Source: Chitinophagales bacterium (GTDB lineage: Bacteria > Bacteroidota > Bacteroidia > Chitinophagales > LD1). Taken from it: DNA of 64,000 nucleotides. The position numbers and the translations under genes were made by a program. Shown here piece after piece: positions 1,814 through 37,642 of the stretch. The notes under the pieces are model-generated. The model made no database searches. It saw only the letters and a list, made by a program, of their open reading frames with translations, and was not told the DNA's origin. The DNA lies in assembly GCA_016787045.1 (NCBI GenBank), contig JAEUVA010000003.1, positions 62,001 to 126,000 on the forward strand, given 5' to 3'. Within the stretch, counting starts at the first letter, position 1. The number at the start of each line of letters is the position of its first letter.

Positions 1814-3187
1814 ATGAGCAAAACCAAAACCATCTTTTTCTGCCAAAACTGTGGTAACCAAAGCCCCAAGTGGGTGGGCAAGTGCCCGGTATGCAACGAG
1901 TGGAATACTTACGCAGAAGAAATTATTGATAAGCAAGAAGAAAAGCTGAAAGAAAAACGCGGCTATGCCGTGAAGAAAAACGAGACAGTTAAGCCAGTGC
2001 CCATCACGCAGGTACAGGAGTTAGAAATGCAACGCATAGATACTTTAGACACCGAGCTTAACCGAGTGCTGGGTGGCGGCATAGTACTGGGCAGTTTGGT
2101 GCTCATAGGTGGTGAGCCGGGCATTGGCAAAAGTACACTGATGTTGCAACTGGCATTGCAATTAAAAGGCAAAAAAGTACTATACGTTACCGGTGAAGAA
2201 AGTGATAGGCAAATCAAGCTTCGCGCAGAGCGCATAGGCATAAACAACGAGCTATGTTTTTTGCTGACAGAAACCAACACCCAACAAATTTTTAAACAAG
2301 CCGAAGAGTTAGCCCCCGATGTATTGGTGATAGATTCTATACAAACGCTGCACACCGTATATGTAGAAAGCACACCCGGCAGCGTAAGTCAGGTGCGCGA
2401 ATGCACAGCCGAACTCATGCGCTTTGCCAAAGAGAGTGCTATACCCGTTTTTTTGATTGGCCACATTACTAAAGATGGTATGATAGCCGGCCCCAAAGTG
2501 CTGGAGCACATTGTAGATACCGTACTGCAATTTGAAGGCGACCGCAACTACACCTACCGTATTTTACGCACCACCAAAAACCGTTTTGGTTCCACTTCCG
2601 AAATGGGCATTTACGAAATGGTGGGCGAGGGTTTGCGATCGGTGCTCAACCCATCAGAAATACTGATAACCCAACGCGATGAAAACCTTAGCGGAATAGC
2701 CATAGCTGCCATGGTAGAAGGCATGAGGCCTTTTTTGGTAGAAACACAGGCCTTGGTTACTCCCGCGTTTTACGGCACCCCGCAGCGCAGCTCCACGGGC
2801 TTTGATGTGCGCAGAATGAACATGCTGCTGGCAGTGCTTGAAAAGCGCGCGGGCTTTCGGTTTGGCACTAAAGATGTTTTTTTAAACATAGCCGGTGGCC
2901 TGCGGGTAGAAGACCCGGCTATTGACCTTGGTGTGATGGCTGCGCTGTGCTCTTCGTACAACGATATTGCCATACCCAGCAAATATGCTTTTGCTGCCGA
3001 AGTGGGGTTGAGTGGCGAGGTACGCGCTGTAAGCCGCGTAGAGCAACGCATAGCCGAAGCCGATAAACTGGGATTTGAGAAAATCTATATCAGCAAGTTC
3101 AATCAAAAGATAGATGCCAAACGGTTTAACTTAGAAGTGGTGTACATCAGCCGCGTGCAACAGTTGATGGAAGAGCTATTTGGGTGA
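1814..3187 (+). CDS. radA: DNA repair ATPase RadA
   Basis: RadA (Sms) is a RecA-like ATPase that promotes branch migration in recombinational repair. The 457-residue product has the full family layout: an N-terminal zinc ribbon (Cys10, Cys13, Cys24, Cys27), a Walker A motif GGEPGIGKST, the RadA-specific KNRFG motif, and a C-terminal Lon-protease-like domain. A TTG 21 nt upstream is in frame, but ATG 1814 puts the zinc ribbon at the usual distance from the N-terminus and lies just downstream of a consensus promoter. The gene is followed closely by a HicBA module. Confidence 0.96.
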   Translation: MSKTKTIFFCQNCGNQSPKWVGKCPVCNEWNTYAEEIIDKQEEKLKEKRGYAVKKNETVKPVPITQVQELEMQRIDTLDTELNRVLGGGIVLGSLVLIGGEPGIGKSTLMLQLALQLKGKKVLYVTGEESDRQIKLRAERIGINNELCFLLTETNTQQIFKQAEELAPDVLVIDSIQTLHTVYVESTPGSVSQVRECTAELMRFAKESAIPVFLIGHITKDGMIAGPKVLEHIVDTVLQFEGDRNYTYRILRTTKNRFGSTSEMGIYEMVGEGLRSVLNPSEILITQRDENLSGIAIAAMVEGMRPFLVETQALVTPAFYGTPQRSSTGFDVRRMNMLLAVLEKRAGFRFGTKDVFLNIAGGLRVEDPAIDLGVMAALCSSYNDIAIPSKYAFAAEVGLSGEVRAVSRVEQRIAEADKLGFEKIYISKFNQKIDAKRFNLEVVYISRVQQLMEELFG

Positions 3188-3211
3188 TTGCCTCATTTGG
3201 CAATAAAACTT

Positions 3212-3219
3212 TACTTTTG
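3212..3219 (+). promoter_or_regulatory. Predicted promoter of hicBA
   Basis: TACTTTTG is an exact TAnnTTTG box. A TTG at 3188-3190 overlaps the radA stop and lies 21 nt upstream, giving a plausible -33/-7 pair. The predicted start of transcription is only about 8 nt before the hicB ATG. Confidence 0.5.
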
Positions 3220-3233
3220 GGTAAATTGCTCCA

Positions 3234-3440
3234 ATGAATGAGATTATTTTTTCGGTAGAAGAATCAGATGAGGGTGGCTACATCGCTAAGGCACTTGGCT
3301 ACAGCATTATTACACAAGCTGAAACCATAGTAGAGCTAAAGGCAATGGTAACAGACGCAGTAAAATGCCACTTTGAAAGCAGTCAATTGCCCAAGATAGT
3401 ACGGCTTCATTTTGTAAGAGAAGAAGTATTTGCTGTATAG
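3234..3440 (+). CDS. HicB-family antitoxin-like protein
   Basis: This 68-residue protein has the partial RNase H-like fold of small HicB antitoxins: a strand with EESDEGGYIAKAL, then SIITQAETIVELKAMVTDAV, the pattern in which HicB binds and masks HicA. No DNA-binding tail follows, so autorepression would need another factor. The HicA gene starts 9 nt after its stop, so the two form an operon with the antitoxin first, opposite to the classical hicA-hicB order. Assignment rests on the fold-like pattern and the neighbour. Confidence 0.8.
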   Translation: MNEIIFSVEESDEGGYIAKALGYSIITQAETIVELKAMVTDAVKCHFESSQLPKIVRLHFVREEVFAV

Positions 3441-3449
3441 TACTGTTGT

Positions 3450-3692
3450 ATGAAAATCCCGCGCGATCTATCTGGTAAAGAACTAATCCAATTGCTTAAA
3501 CCACTAGGTTATTCACCCACACGGCAAACAGGGAGTCATATTAGAATAACCACCACAGTTAATGGTGAGCACCACGTTACTATCCCTAATCACTCTCCTA
3601 TAAAGATAGGTACGCTATCGGCTATTATCTATGAAATAGCAATACATCATCATACTCCAAAAGAAACGCTGATGAAGCAGTTGTTTGGATAA
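3450..3692 (+). CDS. HicA-family mRNA interferase toxin
   Basis: The 80-residue protein is a typical HicA (YcfA) double-stranded-RNA-binding-like toxin, predicted to cut mRNA unless bound by HicB. It begins with the family pattern PRDLSGKELIQLLKPLGY, followed by RQTGSHIRI, where His30 is the expected catalytic residue, and then HHVTIPNHSPIKIGTL. Length is normal and no lesion is visible, so the toxin is likely functional. It is encoded 9 nt downstream of the antitoxin. Confidence 0.88.
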   Translation: MKIPRDLSGKELIQLLKPLGYSPTRQTGSHIRITTTVNGEHHVTIPNHSPIKIGTLSAIIYEIAIHHHTPKETLMKQLFG

Positions 3693-3771
3693 CTAATTTC
3701 AACGACTCACCATCTTTTTTAAACTATTTCGTTGCTTCTTGCGTCTGTAATGCAGAAATTTGTCGGCTTCG

Positions 3772-4359
3772 GTGAAAAAGTACCTACTTCTTTCCTTTTT
3801 GTTGATAACCACCATGCTCCGCGCAGAGCGGTTGGTGTTTGACATGAGTGCCTTTGGCATTACGTTTGGCAAAATGACGGTAGAGCGTATTCAGGAAACC
3901 GACAGCACTGAATTGTACACCCTTCATGCCAAAGGATATTTAAAAGTACTTTGGATGGAGCGCAGTGACGAAACTAAGTACGAAGTGCGCTACCTCAATG
4001 GTAAACTCATTTCATCGGGCTATAAGCATTACGAAAAAGGGCAACTGAAAAAATGGAGCCGTGTACAATACAACGGTAACGAATACAGTGTAGAAACACA
4101 TAAGGGAAAAAGTTCATTTACCGAGGTGCCGGTTTTTTCGGTACTCAAGTTGCACTTTTTTCAACCCCAAAACATCAGCCGCATTTTTTATGAAGAAGAA
4201 AGTGCATTTACCAATCTCAACAAGCGCGATGCCAACACTATTGAGATAAAAGGCCGCGAAGGAAACCGAAGCGTTTATCACTACGAAAACGGCAAACTCA
4301 AAAGCATGGAGTTTCATATCTCCATTGCCACAGTGTATATGAAGCTGAGCGCTGGTTAA
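3772..4359 (+). CDS. DUF3108-like secreted protein
   Basis: This 195-residue protein starts with a signal peptide (MKKYLLLSFLLI) when read from GTG 3772. A TTG at 3760 is in frame but adds four residues ahead of the positively charged start and is less likely. The mature part is predicted beta-rich, with FDMSAFGITFGKMTVE near the start and DANTIEIKGREGNRSVYHYENGKL repeats toward the end, resembling the periplasmic DUF3108 family. Biochemical role is unknown. It lies between the HicBA module and carA and is read in the same direction. Confidence 0.7.
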   Translation: MKKYLLLSFLLITTMLRAERLVFDMSAFGITFGKMTVERIQETDSTELYTLHAKGYLKVLWMERSDETKYEVRYLNGKLISSGYKHYEKGQLKKWSRVQYNGNEYSVETHKGKSSFTEVPVFSVLKLHFFQPQNISRIFYEEESAFTNLNKRDANTIEIKGREGNRSVYHYENGKLKSMEFHISIATVYMKLSAG

Positions 4360-32620: not shown

Positions 32621-33267
32621 TTTGATGATTAACAGCATATTGATTTGCTAACTCTATGTACATAGGACAAACCAGTACTTGCGTTGGCATAAGGATCGTA
32701 TAAGAATATTTGTCAAGTATTTTGTTTCTTCAATTTTGTTTGTTTTATATTTGTATTTCAGATAATAAAAGTGAGAATTCTAATATTATGAAACGCGAAA
32801 TTATCCCCCCCCTCTTTTTTCGGATTTTATTATTATTTAATTTGTATTCATAACTTTGCCTACATCTGTTGCAGAGTTAGTGAAGCTCACATACTAAATT
32901 TTCTTAACTCGCACTTTTTTTACTATAGATGTCCAACAGAATTTAAAGACACTAGTTTATACTGTCATGTAAATCTTTATGATACATGCTCTTTGGATGT
33001 ATAGCTAATGAGCAAGAAGACTAACTAATGCGCCTTGCACAGCACCATATCAGTTTGTAGTAAGCGTATAAAGTAAACTCAAAATTTGTGCAACTAAATT
33101 TACATTTTATGTGCTAATGGGATGTGTTCCCGTTAGTTCATAGGATTTATCAACGGTGCTTGCCAAAGTAGCACTGTGGGTTAATTAGACTCCCCCTCAA
33201 TTAAATGAGTCATCTCGGAAGCCGAAAAGAGATTTATTATAAGAGTATGCAAACAACAATGTAAAAT
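32621..33267 (+). other. AT-rich gap with C8 tract and small ORFs
   Basis: No confident gene lies in these 647 bases. A short ORF from ATG 32788 reads MKREIIPPLFFRILLLF, a signal-peptide-like start, and stops after 21 codons. It crosses a C8 run (32805-32812). With seven Cs a different frame would stay open for about 70 codons, to about 33004. Also present are a perfect palindrome CTATGTACATAG (32654-32665) and a TTAATT/AATTAA inverted repeat around 33181-33204. The rest looks non-coding or decayed. Confidence 0.6.
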
Positions 33268-33615
33268 ATGAAACGGGTAATAGAAACAGCTGTATTGCTA
33301 ATATTTTGTGTACAATCGTTTAATTGCTTTGCCATTTATGAACGGTTTACGTCTAATGGGGGGCCAAATGGATACAACTATGTATCAAAAGAAGTTTCTG
33401 GCGATAGAACATGTATTCAATGTTATGACCCGGGTTTTGTATCTTGTGTGTTTATGGTTGAAAATGGCAATCAACAAGAGGCAGATTTGGCCATTATTGC
33501 CGCACAAAAAATAGCACAAGGTGTCTTGACTGGGCGAATTGTAAATAATCGTTACACCTGTGAATGGGTATCTCGGGCAAGTGATGGCTACAATTCTACA
33601 ATTATTGTTTACTAA
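33268..33615 (+). CDS. Small secreted NGGP-motif protein, copy 1
   Basis: The 115-residue protein has a signal peptide (MKRVIETAVLLIFCVQSFNCFA) and a short mature domain with SNGGPNGYNY, two near Cys residues (TCIQCYDPGFVSC), LTGRI and CEWVS. The adjacent gene encodes a clear paralog with the same spaced motifs (NGGPxGY, C-x-DPG, LTGRI, EW, STI). I do not recognise the family. Disulfide-stabilised extracellular or periplasmic small proteins are likely. Base composition is AT-rich. Confidence 0.75.
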   Translation: MKRVIETAVLLIFCVQSFNCFAIYERFTSNGGPNGYNYVSKEVSGDRTCIQCYDPGFVSCVFMVENGNQQEADLAIIAAQKIAQGVLTGRIVNNRYTCEWVSRASDGYNSTIIVY

Positions 33616-33628
33616 AAATCAAATAACA

Positions 33629-33970
33629 ATGAAAAGCATAATATTAACTGTCACATTCTTAGGCATTTACTTCCATAGTTTTTCATACTACAAAAGAGAA
33701 GCTATCAATGGTGGTCCACATGGTTATTACACCACATCTGTTGTCAAGAATGGAGACAACTGGACAGAAATATCTTGTAAAGATCCAGGGTATTCAGAGT
33801 GCCCTATGTTTCCGGAAGATCCGAGCCAAGATGAAGGAGCTCTAGTGAACATTATCATGAGCAGAATATACGAAGGTCAGCTAACTGGACGAATTTCATA
33901 CCGTTCGTTAGTTGGAGAGTGGATAGCTACTGACAATACCGCTCGCACATCCACCATATTGATACGGTAG
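33629..33970 (+). CDS. Small secreted NGGP-motif protein, copy 2
   Basis: The 113-residue protein begins at ATG 33629 with a signal peptide (MKSIILTVTFLGIYFHSFS), then INGGPHGYYTTS, SCKDPGYSEC, QLTGRI, GEWIA and a C-terminal STILIR. It is a diverged paralog of the gene ending 13 nt upstream. The copies differ most in the acidic middle part. An upstream in-frame start at 33560 overlaps copy 1 and is less likely. A strong terminator follows. Function is unknown. Confidence 0.75.
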   Translation: MKSIILTVTFLGIYFHSFSYYKREAINGGPHGYYTTSVVKNGDNWTEISCKDPGYSECPMFPEDPSQDEGALVNIIMSRIYEGQLTGRISYRSLVGEWIATDNTARTSTILIR

Positions 33971-33981
33971 AGATTCACATC

Positions 33982-34012
33982 AACAGAACCGGACATTCCG
34001 GTTCTGTTTTGC
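33982..34012 (+). terminator. Rho-independent terminator
   Basis: AACAGAACCGGA (33982-33993) pairs perfectly with TCCGGTTCTGTT (33997-34008) around a CAT loop, and the stem leads into TTTT. It ends the NGGP-protein transcript just 15 nt before the next ATG. Confidence 0.9.
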
Positions 34013-34023
34013 ATATTTATGAT

Positions 34024-35199
34024 ATGAAACATATAGTGCTTACAATCTTCATTTTTCTGATATTTCGTGGTGCATCACAAAGTTGTTTGTCTGAAATATA
34101 CCCATACGATACGCTTTATGCCTTGCCCTACTTTGACAGAGATATAAAATCAAGCAATGCTGCCTTATATAAAAATGAGTTATGGTTATACACTCCAACT
34201 TTAAAGGAAAATGACACCCTATATTTTCAAGTGTTTAACCTTGATAAACGTACAGTTGTGCAAAAAACAGTATATGTGCCATCGCTTAGTTTTAAAGTAA
34301 GTTACCCAGACAGCCGAGCATTTGCCGTAACTAACAACAACCTTGCATTATATTTCCATGGCGTAGTACTGGTTTTAAAACGGAAAGGCAATGGGCTGTT
34401 CTTTGAAACTATCTTTCCTATTAATGAGGGCATAGAATTTATGCATTTGACCGATGACCGAAAACTAAAATTAGGTAAGGCGTACAATTTTCATCCGCTC
34501 TCACAGTCCACTAAAACATTTGCCGGAGTTTATGATCTAAATTCACAAAAGTTTAATAGCTACATCAACCCGAGTGTTACAGGCATAGAGTTTACCCACT
34601 TTAGTCCACGACAGCACATTGCTTTTTCTGATAAGTTTACCGCCACCGCTGATATGTTAACCTATTTTGTTACAGTATATACCAATAGTTTAAAGGATTC
34701 TGTCACTATAAAAAGAAGCATAGACAACTTTGGATTAAATGCAGAACAAAAAATGGCTTATGAAAAGCATCGCACCATTTCTAATGCAAAAACACTCATT
34801 GATTCTCTCTCAGAAATAGAAGACAATATTGCACGTATAGAGTGGATAGGTTTTATAAACGATACCACACTTTTGGTGCGCCATATTCCCATCCGGCAAT
34901 TAGATAAAAATCGTATTCGGTATTACGATGTTTGGCTATTTAGTAACAATAAATGGTCACTATCACAAACTGATATTGCCGATATATTACCTAGCACAGA
35001 AATTTATAATAGAAAAAATATGCCGATATTATCATCGCAGTCAACAATACTTGTAAATGATAAATTTTTAGTGGTACAAAGCAAAGGTACAGACATCAAC
35101 TTTTTATACTTAAACCAGCAAGATGTTAAAAAAAGGCAAGATGAATATTATGCGGAAAAGTACCCATGCATACGATTGGATGTTCATAAAAAGCATTAG
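34024..35199 (+). CDS. Secreted protein of unknown function
   Basis: The 391-residue protein starts at ATG 34024 with a signal peptide (MKHIVLTIFIFLIFRGASQ). The mature part looks beta-rich and propeller-like (YKNELWLYTPTL, NNNLALYFHGVVLVLKR, GVYDLNSQKFNSY), with a helical segment around residues 240-270. No known domain is recognised. Its last 20 bases overlap the start of a thioredoxin-like gene, suggesting co-expression. Composition is AT-rich like the rest of this stretch. Confidence 0.7.
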   Translation: MKHIVLTIFIFLIFRGASQSCLSEIYPYDTLYALPYFDRDIKSSNAALYKNELWLYTPTLKENDTLYFQVFNLDKRTVVQKTVYVPSLSFKVSYPDSRAFAVTNNNLALYFHGVVLVLKRKGNGLFFETIFPINEGIEFMHLTDDRKLKLGKAYNFHPLSQSTKTFAGVYDLNSQKFNSYINPSVTGIEFTHFSPRQHIAFSDKFTATADMLTYFVTVYTNSLKDSVTIKRSIDNFGLNAEQKMAYEKHRTISNAKTLIDSLSEIEDNIARIEWIGFINDTTLLVRHIPIRQLDKNRIRYYDVWLFSNNKWSLSQTDIADILPSTEIYNRKNMPILSSQSTILVNDKFLVVQSKGTDINFLYLNQQDVKKRQDEYYAEKYPCIRLDVHKKH

Positions 35200-35689
35200 T
35201 GCAGCAGTGTTGCTAAGTTTTAAAGTCCAAGCTCAAGTTGCCCAAGCTAACTTTAATACACTTAAAATGACCAAATTAGTAACGATTTCTGGTGCCGCAA
35301 CTACTTTGGCAGATACCAACTGTGCTTTACAAATTACATTTACATACACGAACAAAAACTGTCTGAAGTGCTTCGCTGATATTGTACAAGCAATAGAAAG
35401 ACAGATAGGTAAAGATTCAAACGTGTGCTACCAATGTATTGCTCCGATGGGCAATACTGTTTTAGAGAGAAGATTTGTGATGGATGCGCTGGAAAAAATT
35501 TTACCTCAGGAAACTCGGTATCTGTTTTTTGATGAGCAAAACGATAGTTCATTATTTTTTAATCTAAAAAATGCTAAGTCGCCTAATCTTTATCTGATTA
35601 ATTGTTACCAGCAAACAGTCAAATATTATTCTTACGATGAGCTTTTTCTAAATGGAAGTTACACTAACGTGATTGCCATATATGATTAG
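35180..35689 (+). CDS. Secreted thioredoxin-fold-like protein
   Basis: Reading from ATG 35180 gives 169 residues with a signal peptide (MFIKSISAAVLLSFKVQAQ). An upstream in-frame ATG at 35150 would extend it by ten residues. The mature part has an oxidoreductase-like strand-CxxC-helix (TYTNKNCLKCFADI, Cys61 and Cys64) and a later SPNLYLIN strand at the place of the cis-Pro loop, both suggestive of a thioredoxin fold. Two other Cys (VCYQC) are present. It overlaps the preceding secreted gene. Redox function is inference only. Confidence 0.55.
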   Translation: MFIKSISAAVLLSFKVQAQVAQANFNTLKMTKLVTISGAATTLADTNCALQITFTYTNKNCLKCFADIVQAIERQIGKDSNVCYQCIAPMGNTVLERRFVMDALEKILPQETRYLFFDEQNDSSLFFNLKNAKSPNLYLINCYQQTVKYYSYDELFLNGSYTNVIAIYD

Positions 35690-35735
35690 AAATTAATTTG
35701 GTACACAGCTTCAAACAAATTTGACTATTGCCGTA

Positions 35736-36544: not shown

Positions 36545-36594
36545 ATATGTCAATGACCAAAACCAATTTCGTATTACCAAAAACTAAAAACAAA

Positions 36595-37035
36595 ATGAAA
36601 AAGTTACTTCTGATGTTAAGCTTTGCCGGTTCCGTTTTCTTAGCCGCTGCACAAGACCCGGCTCAAACTCCTGCTCCGGACCCTAACGCTCCTGATTTGA
36701 AATGGGAATCTACCACTATTGATTACGGCACCGTAACCAAAGGCGATGAAAACAACGCTACCCGTTACTTTAAGTTTACCAACGTAGGCAAAAGCCCGCT
36801 GATTATTGGCGATTGCCGTGGTTCATGCGGTTGTACGGTGCCACAGTGCCCTAAAGAGCCAATCCTTCCCGGTAAAGGCGGTGAAATCAAAGTACACTAC
36901 GATGTAAACCGAGTAGGTCAGTTTACAAAAACAGTAACGGTTACCTCTAACGCAAAAAGCCCTAACGAAACCTTAAAAATTCAGGGTAACGTAATTGACC
37001 CTGCTGCTCAACCGGCTCCTACAGAAGGCAAGTAG
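36595..37035 (+). CDS. DUF1573 secreted Ig-like protein, copy 1
   Basis: The 146-residue protein has a signal peptide (MKKLLLMLSFAGSVFLAAAQ) and a DUF1573 domain, an Ig-like fold of the ASPM/SPD-2/Hydin type. It carries IDYGTVTKGD, YFKFTNVGKSPLII, the Cys-rich SCGCTVPQC and YDVNRVGQFTKTVTVTSNA. Function of the family is not established. ATG 36595 follows a good promoter; an in-frame ATG at 36547 would place 16 residues ahead of the signal peptide. A terminator follows. Confidence 0.9.
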   Translation: MKKLLLMLSFAGSVFLAAAQDPAQTPAPDPNAPDLKWESTTIDYGTVTKGDENNATRYFKFTNVGKSPLIIGDCRGSCGCTVPQCPKEPILPGKGGEIKVHYDVNRVGQFTKTVTVTSNAKSPNETLKIQGNVIDPAAQPAPTEGK

Positions 37036-37064
37036 TAGATATATAAAATTAGTTTCTTATACAT

Positions 37065-37101
37065 AAAGCGGCTTCACTTCGGTGAGGCCGCTTTGTTTTT
37101 T
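37065..37101 (+). terminator. Rho-independent terminator with UUCG tetraloop
   Basis: AAAGCGGCTTCAC (37065-37077) pairs with GTGAGGCCGCTTT (37082-37094) through one G-U pair, closing a TTCG tetraloop, then GTTTTTT. It separates the two DUF1573 genes into different transcripts. Confidence 0.93.
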
Positions 37102-37201
37102 GGGGTTAACATAAGTTGTGTGGTGTTTAACTTTTGTTGCCGAGCGTTAACAATCTTAATGGTGAGCTTTGAAGAATTGTTTCATTCTTAAAAAAACCAT
37201 C

Positions 37202-37642
37202 ATGAAAAATTTATTACTCCTGTTATTCATTGCTACTTCTTTTTTTGCTGTGGCACAAACCGGTGCAAAAACCGATGCCGCCCCCGAAGCGGAAATTACC
37301 TTTGAAAAAACCGAGCACAATTTTGGTACGCTGCCCAAGGGCGGTAACACTACCGTTAAGTTCTATTTCCAAAACACCGGCAAAACACCATTGGTGATTT
37401 CGCGCTGCCAGCAAAGCTGTGGATGCACTACCCCTTCTTGCCCAACCGAGGCCATTATGCCCGGCAAAAAAAGTTTTGTAGAAGTACACTACGATTCGTT
37501 GCGGGTGGGGCAATTCAGCAAAACAGTTACCGTAATGTCTAACGCTAAAACAGCCGATGTGGTACTTAAAATCAGCGGCAATATTACCGAAGAGCAATCG
37601 GTACCAGCGGTAGAAACACCCCTGCTAAAACCCAAAGAGTAA
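37202..37642 (+). CDS. DUF1573 secreted Ig-like protein, copy 2
   Basis: The 146-residue protein is a paralog of the one at 36.6 kb: signal peptide (MKNLLLLLFIATSFFAVAQ), HNFGTLPKGG, FYFQNTGKTPLVI, SCGCTTPSC and YDSLRVGQFSKTVTVMSNA. The two copies share the CGC-T-P-x-C element and the GQF[ST]KTVTV strand. A tandem duplication is likely. The start is ATG 37202, since the upstream in-frame start at 37169 precedes the signal peptide. Confidence 0.9.
   Translation: MKNLLLLLFIATSFFAVAQTGAKTDAAPEAEITFEKTEHNFGTLPKGGNTTVKFYFQNTGKTPLVISRCQQSCGCTTPSCPTEAIMPGKKSFVEVHYDSLRVGQFSKTVTVMSNAKTADVVLKISGNITEEQSVPAVETPLLKPKE

Follow-up and report, generated by a model that had tools for sequence, protein, structure and literature searches.

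The mau cluster brings together a large propeller protein, a small cysteine-bearing subunit and maturation proteins. The quinone cofactor of methylamine dehydrogenase is formed from two tryptophan residues, and the small subunit of this enzyme contains many disulfides. Homologues of mauE also occur in three candidate decRiPPter families of Streptomyces, one of which has a mauD homologue as well, and the predicted precursor of each of these families carries at least eight cysteines (PMC7794033). In that report, help by MauE in disulfide formation is regarded as speculative and the function of MauD as unclear (PMC7794033).

A comparable arrangement involves DUF6520 (PF20130), a family of small secreted Bacteroidota proteins with a signal-peptide-like start and several cysteines. 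DUF6520 genes adjoin a MauE domain (PF07291, E 1e-28 to 2.5e-30) at all five loci that we read (L070-L074); at four of these, MauE is joined to an extracytoplasmic part of about 350 amino acids, and at the remaining one a separate 360-aa protein is present. A full-text literature search, with subscription journals and preprints outside its coverage, returned no paper on DUF6520 or on NVEALA (PF14055). Under the same coverage, the titles and abstract openings of the papers listed for 6-bladed beta-propeller and thioredoxin/TlpA systems, Mau proteins (12 of 883 in one case) and Bacteroidota small secreted proteins do not describe the cassette reported here.

In the 64,000-nucleotide stretch of DNA from a Chitinophagales bacterium that we analysed (the window), an earlier note had singled out two orphan genes for small secreted proteins. 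We find that the unit extends past the terminator that follows them to two further genes, outside the region covered by the note, and we now interpret the two orphans as one component of a conserved, putatively redox-type cassette of the cell envelope. The features of this region are as follows.

33268..33615, + strand: small secreted protein 1, 115 aa (ORF and family profile)
33629..33970, + strand: small secreted protein 2, 113 aa when counted from the ATG (ORF and family profile)
33983..34007, + strand: terminator-like hairpin followed by a T run (beats 60 of 60 shuffles)
34024..35199, + strand: secreted protein of 391 aa, beta-rich and propeller-like (homologues are preceded by a small gene at 17 of 19 loci, window included)
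35180..35689, + strand: secreted CxxC (NKNCLKC) protein, probably thioredoxin-like (CxxC motif and gene order)
32621..35720, no strand: AT-rich stretch enclosing the cassette (1-kb windows of 35-38% G+C versus 39-49% in the flanks)

This cassette resembles the mau cluster in its large propeller-like protein, its small cysteine-bearing protein and its putative maturation protein. It differs in having no Mau family among its Pfam matches, one conserved tryptophan and a single conserved Cys loop, and Mau family membership is not supported by these searches. The small proteins share with DUF6520 their size, their signal-peptide-like start and the presence of cysteines, whereas DUF6520 has a MauE neighbour where the family of the window has a CxxC thioredoxin-like partner, and the large partners of the two do not align (probability 1%). 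Membership in DUF6520 was considered and rejected. One of nine small proteins (that of genome G053) gives a DUF6520 match at E 0.012, with 16.4 bits versus a cut-off of 25.4; this is best read as a signal-peptide match, because hhalign comparison of the two families (probability 5.4%) aligns the first 21-22 residues only. NVEALA was also rejected, as neither the window proteins nor the nine members match it in Pfam at E<=1. Among 61 genomes NVEALA itself appeared at one weak locus, below the cut-off (G444), where we recognised no large beta-rich or CxxC gene alongside.

Small secreted proteins and their family

The description of two adjacent, related genes for secreted proteins of about 115 residues is borne out. 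The ORFs encode 115 and 113 amino acids, both proteins have an MK start and a hydrophobic stretch that together look like a signal peptide when judged by eye, and within the 3.6-Mb source genome a search aligns them with each other at 37% identity (E 8.4e-15), from which the two copies are judged homologous beyond chance. Every motif listed in the earlier note is found in both: NGGPNGY/NGGPHGY, CYDPG/CKDPG, LTGRI, EW and STI. The cysteine-bearing segment forms part of a longer element, CYDPGFVSC at residues 52-60 of the first protein (which also has the conserved tryptophan, W100) and CKDPGYSEC at residues 50-58 of the second. The source genome yielded no third copy, even with a 19-member profile, and searches of relatives gave a family of 23 members, the window's two included.

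The family was said to be unrecognised, and the databases agree. Pfam gives zero matches at E<=1 for either window protein, the sole NCBIfam match is irrelevant (E 0.18), PADLOC gives none at E<=0.1 for seven proteins, and a PDB sequence search with a nine-member profile gives none at E<=5. Over nine members, Pfam returns five scattered weak matches, one member each (E 0.012-0.14). Structure prediction, which the note had proposed, yielded models at pLDDT 45.9 for the small protein, too poor to use, and 32.8 for the AlphaFold model of the large protein, likewise unusable; the alignments were shallow because they were made of the window proteins and one related locus only.

The 23 members, 19 of them found through small-protein searches and neighbourhoods and four through the large-protein search, are 113-159 residues long and can be aligned over much of their mature length. 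When profiles were built with all copies of a member's own genome excluded and were restricted to the mature part (after residue 24), all 23 were recovered, with E values (scaled to 1000 sequences) between 1.9e-21 and 2.5e-5. On the strength of these profile comparisons, the window pair is placed in an unnamed family.

Conservation within this family is concentrated in a Cys-Gly-Cys loop and one tryptophan. The motif C-x3-G-x3-C occurs in 19 of 23 members, compared to a mean of 0.17 and a maximum of 2 in 2000 shuffles, and one more member has C-x3-G-x4-C. The remaining three lack both motif cysteines, and no member has just one of the pair, a pattern of pairwise loss that is what a disulfide would give. 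Of these three proteins, one, the second copy in G575, resides with a full cassette and the other two are both G660 copies with no cassette seen; the family thus does not require the loop in every case. An alignment that took in 19 of the 23 proteins contains a single invariant tryptophan column.

Adjacent copies exist at three places (the window, G787 and G660), and G575 has two copies, one on each side of its cassette; the other loci with a small gene have a single one. Divergence between the tandem copies is too great for a rate test. The G660 pair (L061, 4890-5738) is the one without motif cysteines, and, counting this pair, a surrounding cassette is absent for three small genes from two places (G693 C9 and G660).

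Gene order and partner proteins

Reading of the neighbourhoods revealed a recurrent order, in which a small secreted gene is followed by a large propeller-like gene and then by a CxxC gene. This order is present in the window, in G053 and G250, in four genomes of another class, and in more. We compiled 19 large-protein loci, of which 15 came from the large-protein search, one (G476) from the small-protein search, and three (the window, G053 and G250) from order-wide searches with the small and large proteins; five of 20 places were left out as partial or weak (the G515 C93 fragment, G464, G823, G579 C38 and G854). A small gene lies upstream on the same strand at 17 of the 19 loci, window included. 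At 16 of these 17 no ORF of at least 50 aa intervenes, and G476 has one of 116 aa. No small gene is found within 1,470 and 1,191 upstream bases in G767 and G820, respectively.

A separate CxxC gene follows the large gene at 17 of 19 loci, and at 16 of these 17 the two ORFs overlap or are at most 15 nt apart. In G787 the CxxC domain is instead fused to the large protein (residues 458-586, E 9.1e-21), and G744 has no CxxC gene downstream; its upstream ORF is a larger, CxxC lipoprotein-like protein whose match to the CxxC profile is not significant (E 0.31). Leave-one-out profiles were applied to a subset of these genes. Of the 19 large genes, 13 were tested, and each of the 13 was the best ORF at its locus (E 2.2e-58 to 0.0075); of the 17 separate CxxC genes, 11 were tested and all 11 were likewise picked out (E 1.8e-17 to 0.024), three of them with values weaker than 1e-3.

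The association also emerges when the search is begun from the other end. The strong matches of the small- and large-protein searches fall in the same three of the 396 genomes of the order, and a search started with the large protein added six loci not reached from the small protein. A small-family gene lies upstream at four of these six, and its mature part matches at E 2e-6 to 5e-10 a profile built without those four proteins.

The large proteins are 358-459 residues long (607 in the fusion) and share 15-27% identity with that of the window across genomes of two classes. From their length and a strand pattern judged by eye, they look like beta-propellers. The large-protein profile gives no convincing Pfam or PDB match, the best in PDB being Dcr3 at 0.022. 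In G515, a 76-aa ORF (L092, 1549-1779) closely resembles, by eye, a portion of that genome's large protein and is perhaps a partial, recent duplicate; this locus is cut by a contig end.

The CxxC motif is present in 17 of 17 separate partner proteins. In the window, the ORF opens at 35123, and we chose the ATG at 35180, which we read as the start of a signal-peptide-like N-terminus; the gene overlaps the 3' end of the large gene. As in secreted proteins of the Thioredoxin/TlpA type, a TP-type motif is also common: 13 of 17 have a motif of the [TSFA]P type, a pattern chosen after the sequences had been seen, which may mark the cis-proline. The window copy differs, in that it has no Pfam or NCBIfam assignment and reads KSPNLYL, without the proline motif by the pattern used. 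Pfam Thioredoxin_2, AhpC-TSA and Thioredoxin are each matched by one of seven members (E 0.0024-0.0029), and the copies of the window, G476, G523 and G579, scanned singly, have no thioredoxin-family match. The top PDB matches of the CxxC profile, a thioredoxin (0.064) and a DsbG-type protein (0.093), are not significant. From these features, the partner is probably thioredoxin-like.

A single terminator shared by the two small genes had also been proposed, and this agrees with our hairpin analysis: the strong hairpin sits between the second small gene and the large gene, whereas no signal follows the first small gene (42 of 60 shuffles are equally good there). We considered the terminator as a general feature of the cassette and rejected this idea, retaining it for some loci, because the best hairpin beats all 60 shuffles at only six of 17 small-large junctions, counted one per cassette (the window, G053, G250, G575, G515 and G476), and the signal is absent at the other 11. 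The hairpin extends into the next gene in G053 and G515, and G515 and G476 have a poor T run. After the large gene, the hairpin beats all shuffles at one of 17 junctions. The second, solitary small gene of G660 is also followed by a terminator-like hairpin. Where such a terminator follows the small gene, an excess of its product might be made.

Distribution and genomic setting

The cassette is widely but thinly spread. Among the 396 genomes of the order, a three-member small-protein profile found strong relatives only in G053 and G250 besides the window; 14 weak places (E 0.004-0.09), some with in-frame stops, were set aside as noise, as were three (E 0.0028-0.0053) in the order-wide large-protein search. 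A phylum-wide sample of 395 genomes gave four more carriers, all outside the window's class, and one such other class has the family in 11 of 197 genomes, these four included. A further 119 genomes added no carriers. In none of the 17 searched congeners (69-99% complete) did the 19-member profile detect the family.

Because it is sparse, AT-rich and undetected in all 17 of these congeners, we regard the cassette as accessory. At 17 loci of relatives (16 from the genus and one from the family) with the arginase gene that neighbours the cassette in the window, neither the cassette genes nor the methyltransferase that follows the cassette were matched, and no clean empty insertion site was evident; the full 1.5 kb downstream, where the small genes would be expected, is visible at 13 of the 17 loci and none of it at one. 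Shortly downstream of the cassette, at 36547-37642 of the window, are two tandem DUF1573 proteins (Pfam E 5.3e-32 and 9.5e-33), and in G002 a homologue of the first of these is on the opposite side of the arginase gene.

Possible roles

What we observe directly is the family, the gene order, the paired presence or absence of the motif cysteines, and the natural fusion of large and CxxC proteins. Since the family usually precedes genes for large and thioredoxin-like proteins in distant bacteria, we think it most likely that the small proteins serve within a disulfide-handling unit of the cell envelope and not as effectors acting alone, and the recurring context of large propeller-like and CxxC genes indicates a redox or maturation role in the envelope. 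We give about even chances to a three-component cassette with a thioredoxin-like protein that controls the state of the Cys loop and a large protein to which the small one binds. Both small proteins would be exported, and each would fold around the nine-residue loop C-x3-G-x3-C, presumably closed by a disulfide and followed by a helix-like stretch and then a putative strand with the conserved tryptophan. The secreted CxxC protein, if it has the thioredoxin fold, could form, isomerise or reduce this loop, and the large protein, if it is a propeller, could bind the small protein as a scaffold or partner. Where a terminator follows the small gene, the predicted result would be an excess of small protein. 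The chemistry of such a repeated three-gene unit is testable, through its Cys-Gly-Cys loop and its dedicated thioredoxin-like partner.

The earlier note had suggested that the tandem genes might be under selection as effectors, inhibitors or recognition peptides, and this part of it finds no support, given that most loci are single-copy and that the context consists of large and CxxC partners. In a rival reading, the small proteins are secreted for competition or recognition and exert their effect extracellularly, on neighbours or a surface; the large protein would serve as carrier, receptor or immunity partner, with only a folding-helper role left for the thioredoxin-like protein. This fits the signal-peptide-like starts, small size and strong divergence of the small proteins, as well as the extra copies in the window, G787, G660 and G575 and the sparse distribution. 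We nevertheless consider it unlikely: conservation is concentrated in the Cys-Gly-Cys loop and tryptophan, there is usually one copy, the seven proteins have no PADLOC match, searches of plasmids with the large protein and of phages with the first small protein gave no match, and no transporter was recognised by eye among neighbouring ORFs. Shared transfer of neighbours that have no joint function is more improbable by far; an AT-rich stretch and a cassette undetected in 17 of 17 congeners are what an accessory island might look like, yet the same order is kept in two classes, where large proteins have 15-27% identity to that of the window, with overlapping ORFs and a natural fusion.

It is quite unlikely that the small and large proteins form an undescribed two-subunit envelope redox enzyme or sensor, with the loop (perhaps with the tryptophan) as active site, the propeller-like protein as carrier and a thioredoxin of its own for recharging, as one of several parallel Bacteroidota systems with unrelated small cysteine proteins. 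We would be surprised by a methylamine dehydrogenase-like oxidoreductase with a MauD-like maturation factor: the same kinds of parts do stand side by side, and DUF6520 offers a second small secreted cysteine family beside true MauE, but no subunit family appears among Pfam matches at E<=1, the 19 aligned members have a single invariant tryptophan column, and the many-disulfide small subunit known from that enzyme has no counterpart. Slightly more surprising would be a ribosomally made, modified peptide, with the small protein as precursor and its partners as modifying enzymes. Candidate decRiPPter families with mauE homologues, in one case also mauD, and cysteine-rich precursors lend this idea some appeal (PMC7794033), but members of 113-159 aa that align over much of their mature length are unlike a leader with a short core, and no protease or ABC transporter was recognised by eye in the cassettes.

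The three-component cassette that we favour may have parallels, as a similar plan with other small proteins (DUF6520 with MauE, and proteins of 89 and 96 aa) suggests a broader Bacteroidota strategy in which beta-rich partners and redox factors accompany small cysteine proteins that are secreted. At L062, a second cassette (2261-4335) directly upstream of the described one consists of an 89-aa secreted protein (C-VGTGT-C) with no Pfam match, a beta-rich, lipoprotein-like protein of 431 aa and a CxxC protein of 150 aa whose match to the CxxC profile is weak (E 3e-4 and 0.028 in two runs). At L088 (86-2274, G464), a 96-aa Cys-rich small protein, a 212-aa CGAC protein and a 370-aa propeller-like lipoprotein are encoded in a row, an order that differs from that of the window. 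By reading, both loci have the same three kinds of part, with small proteins that look unrelated.
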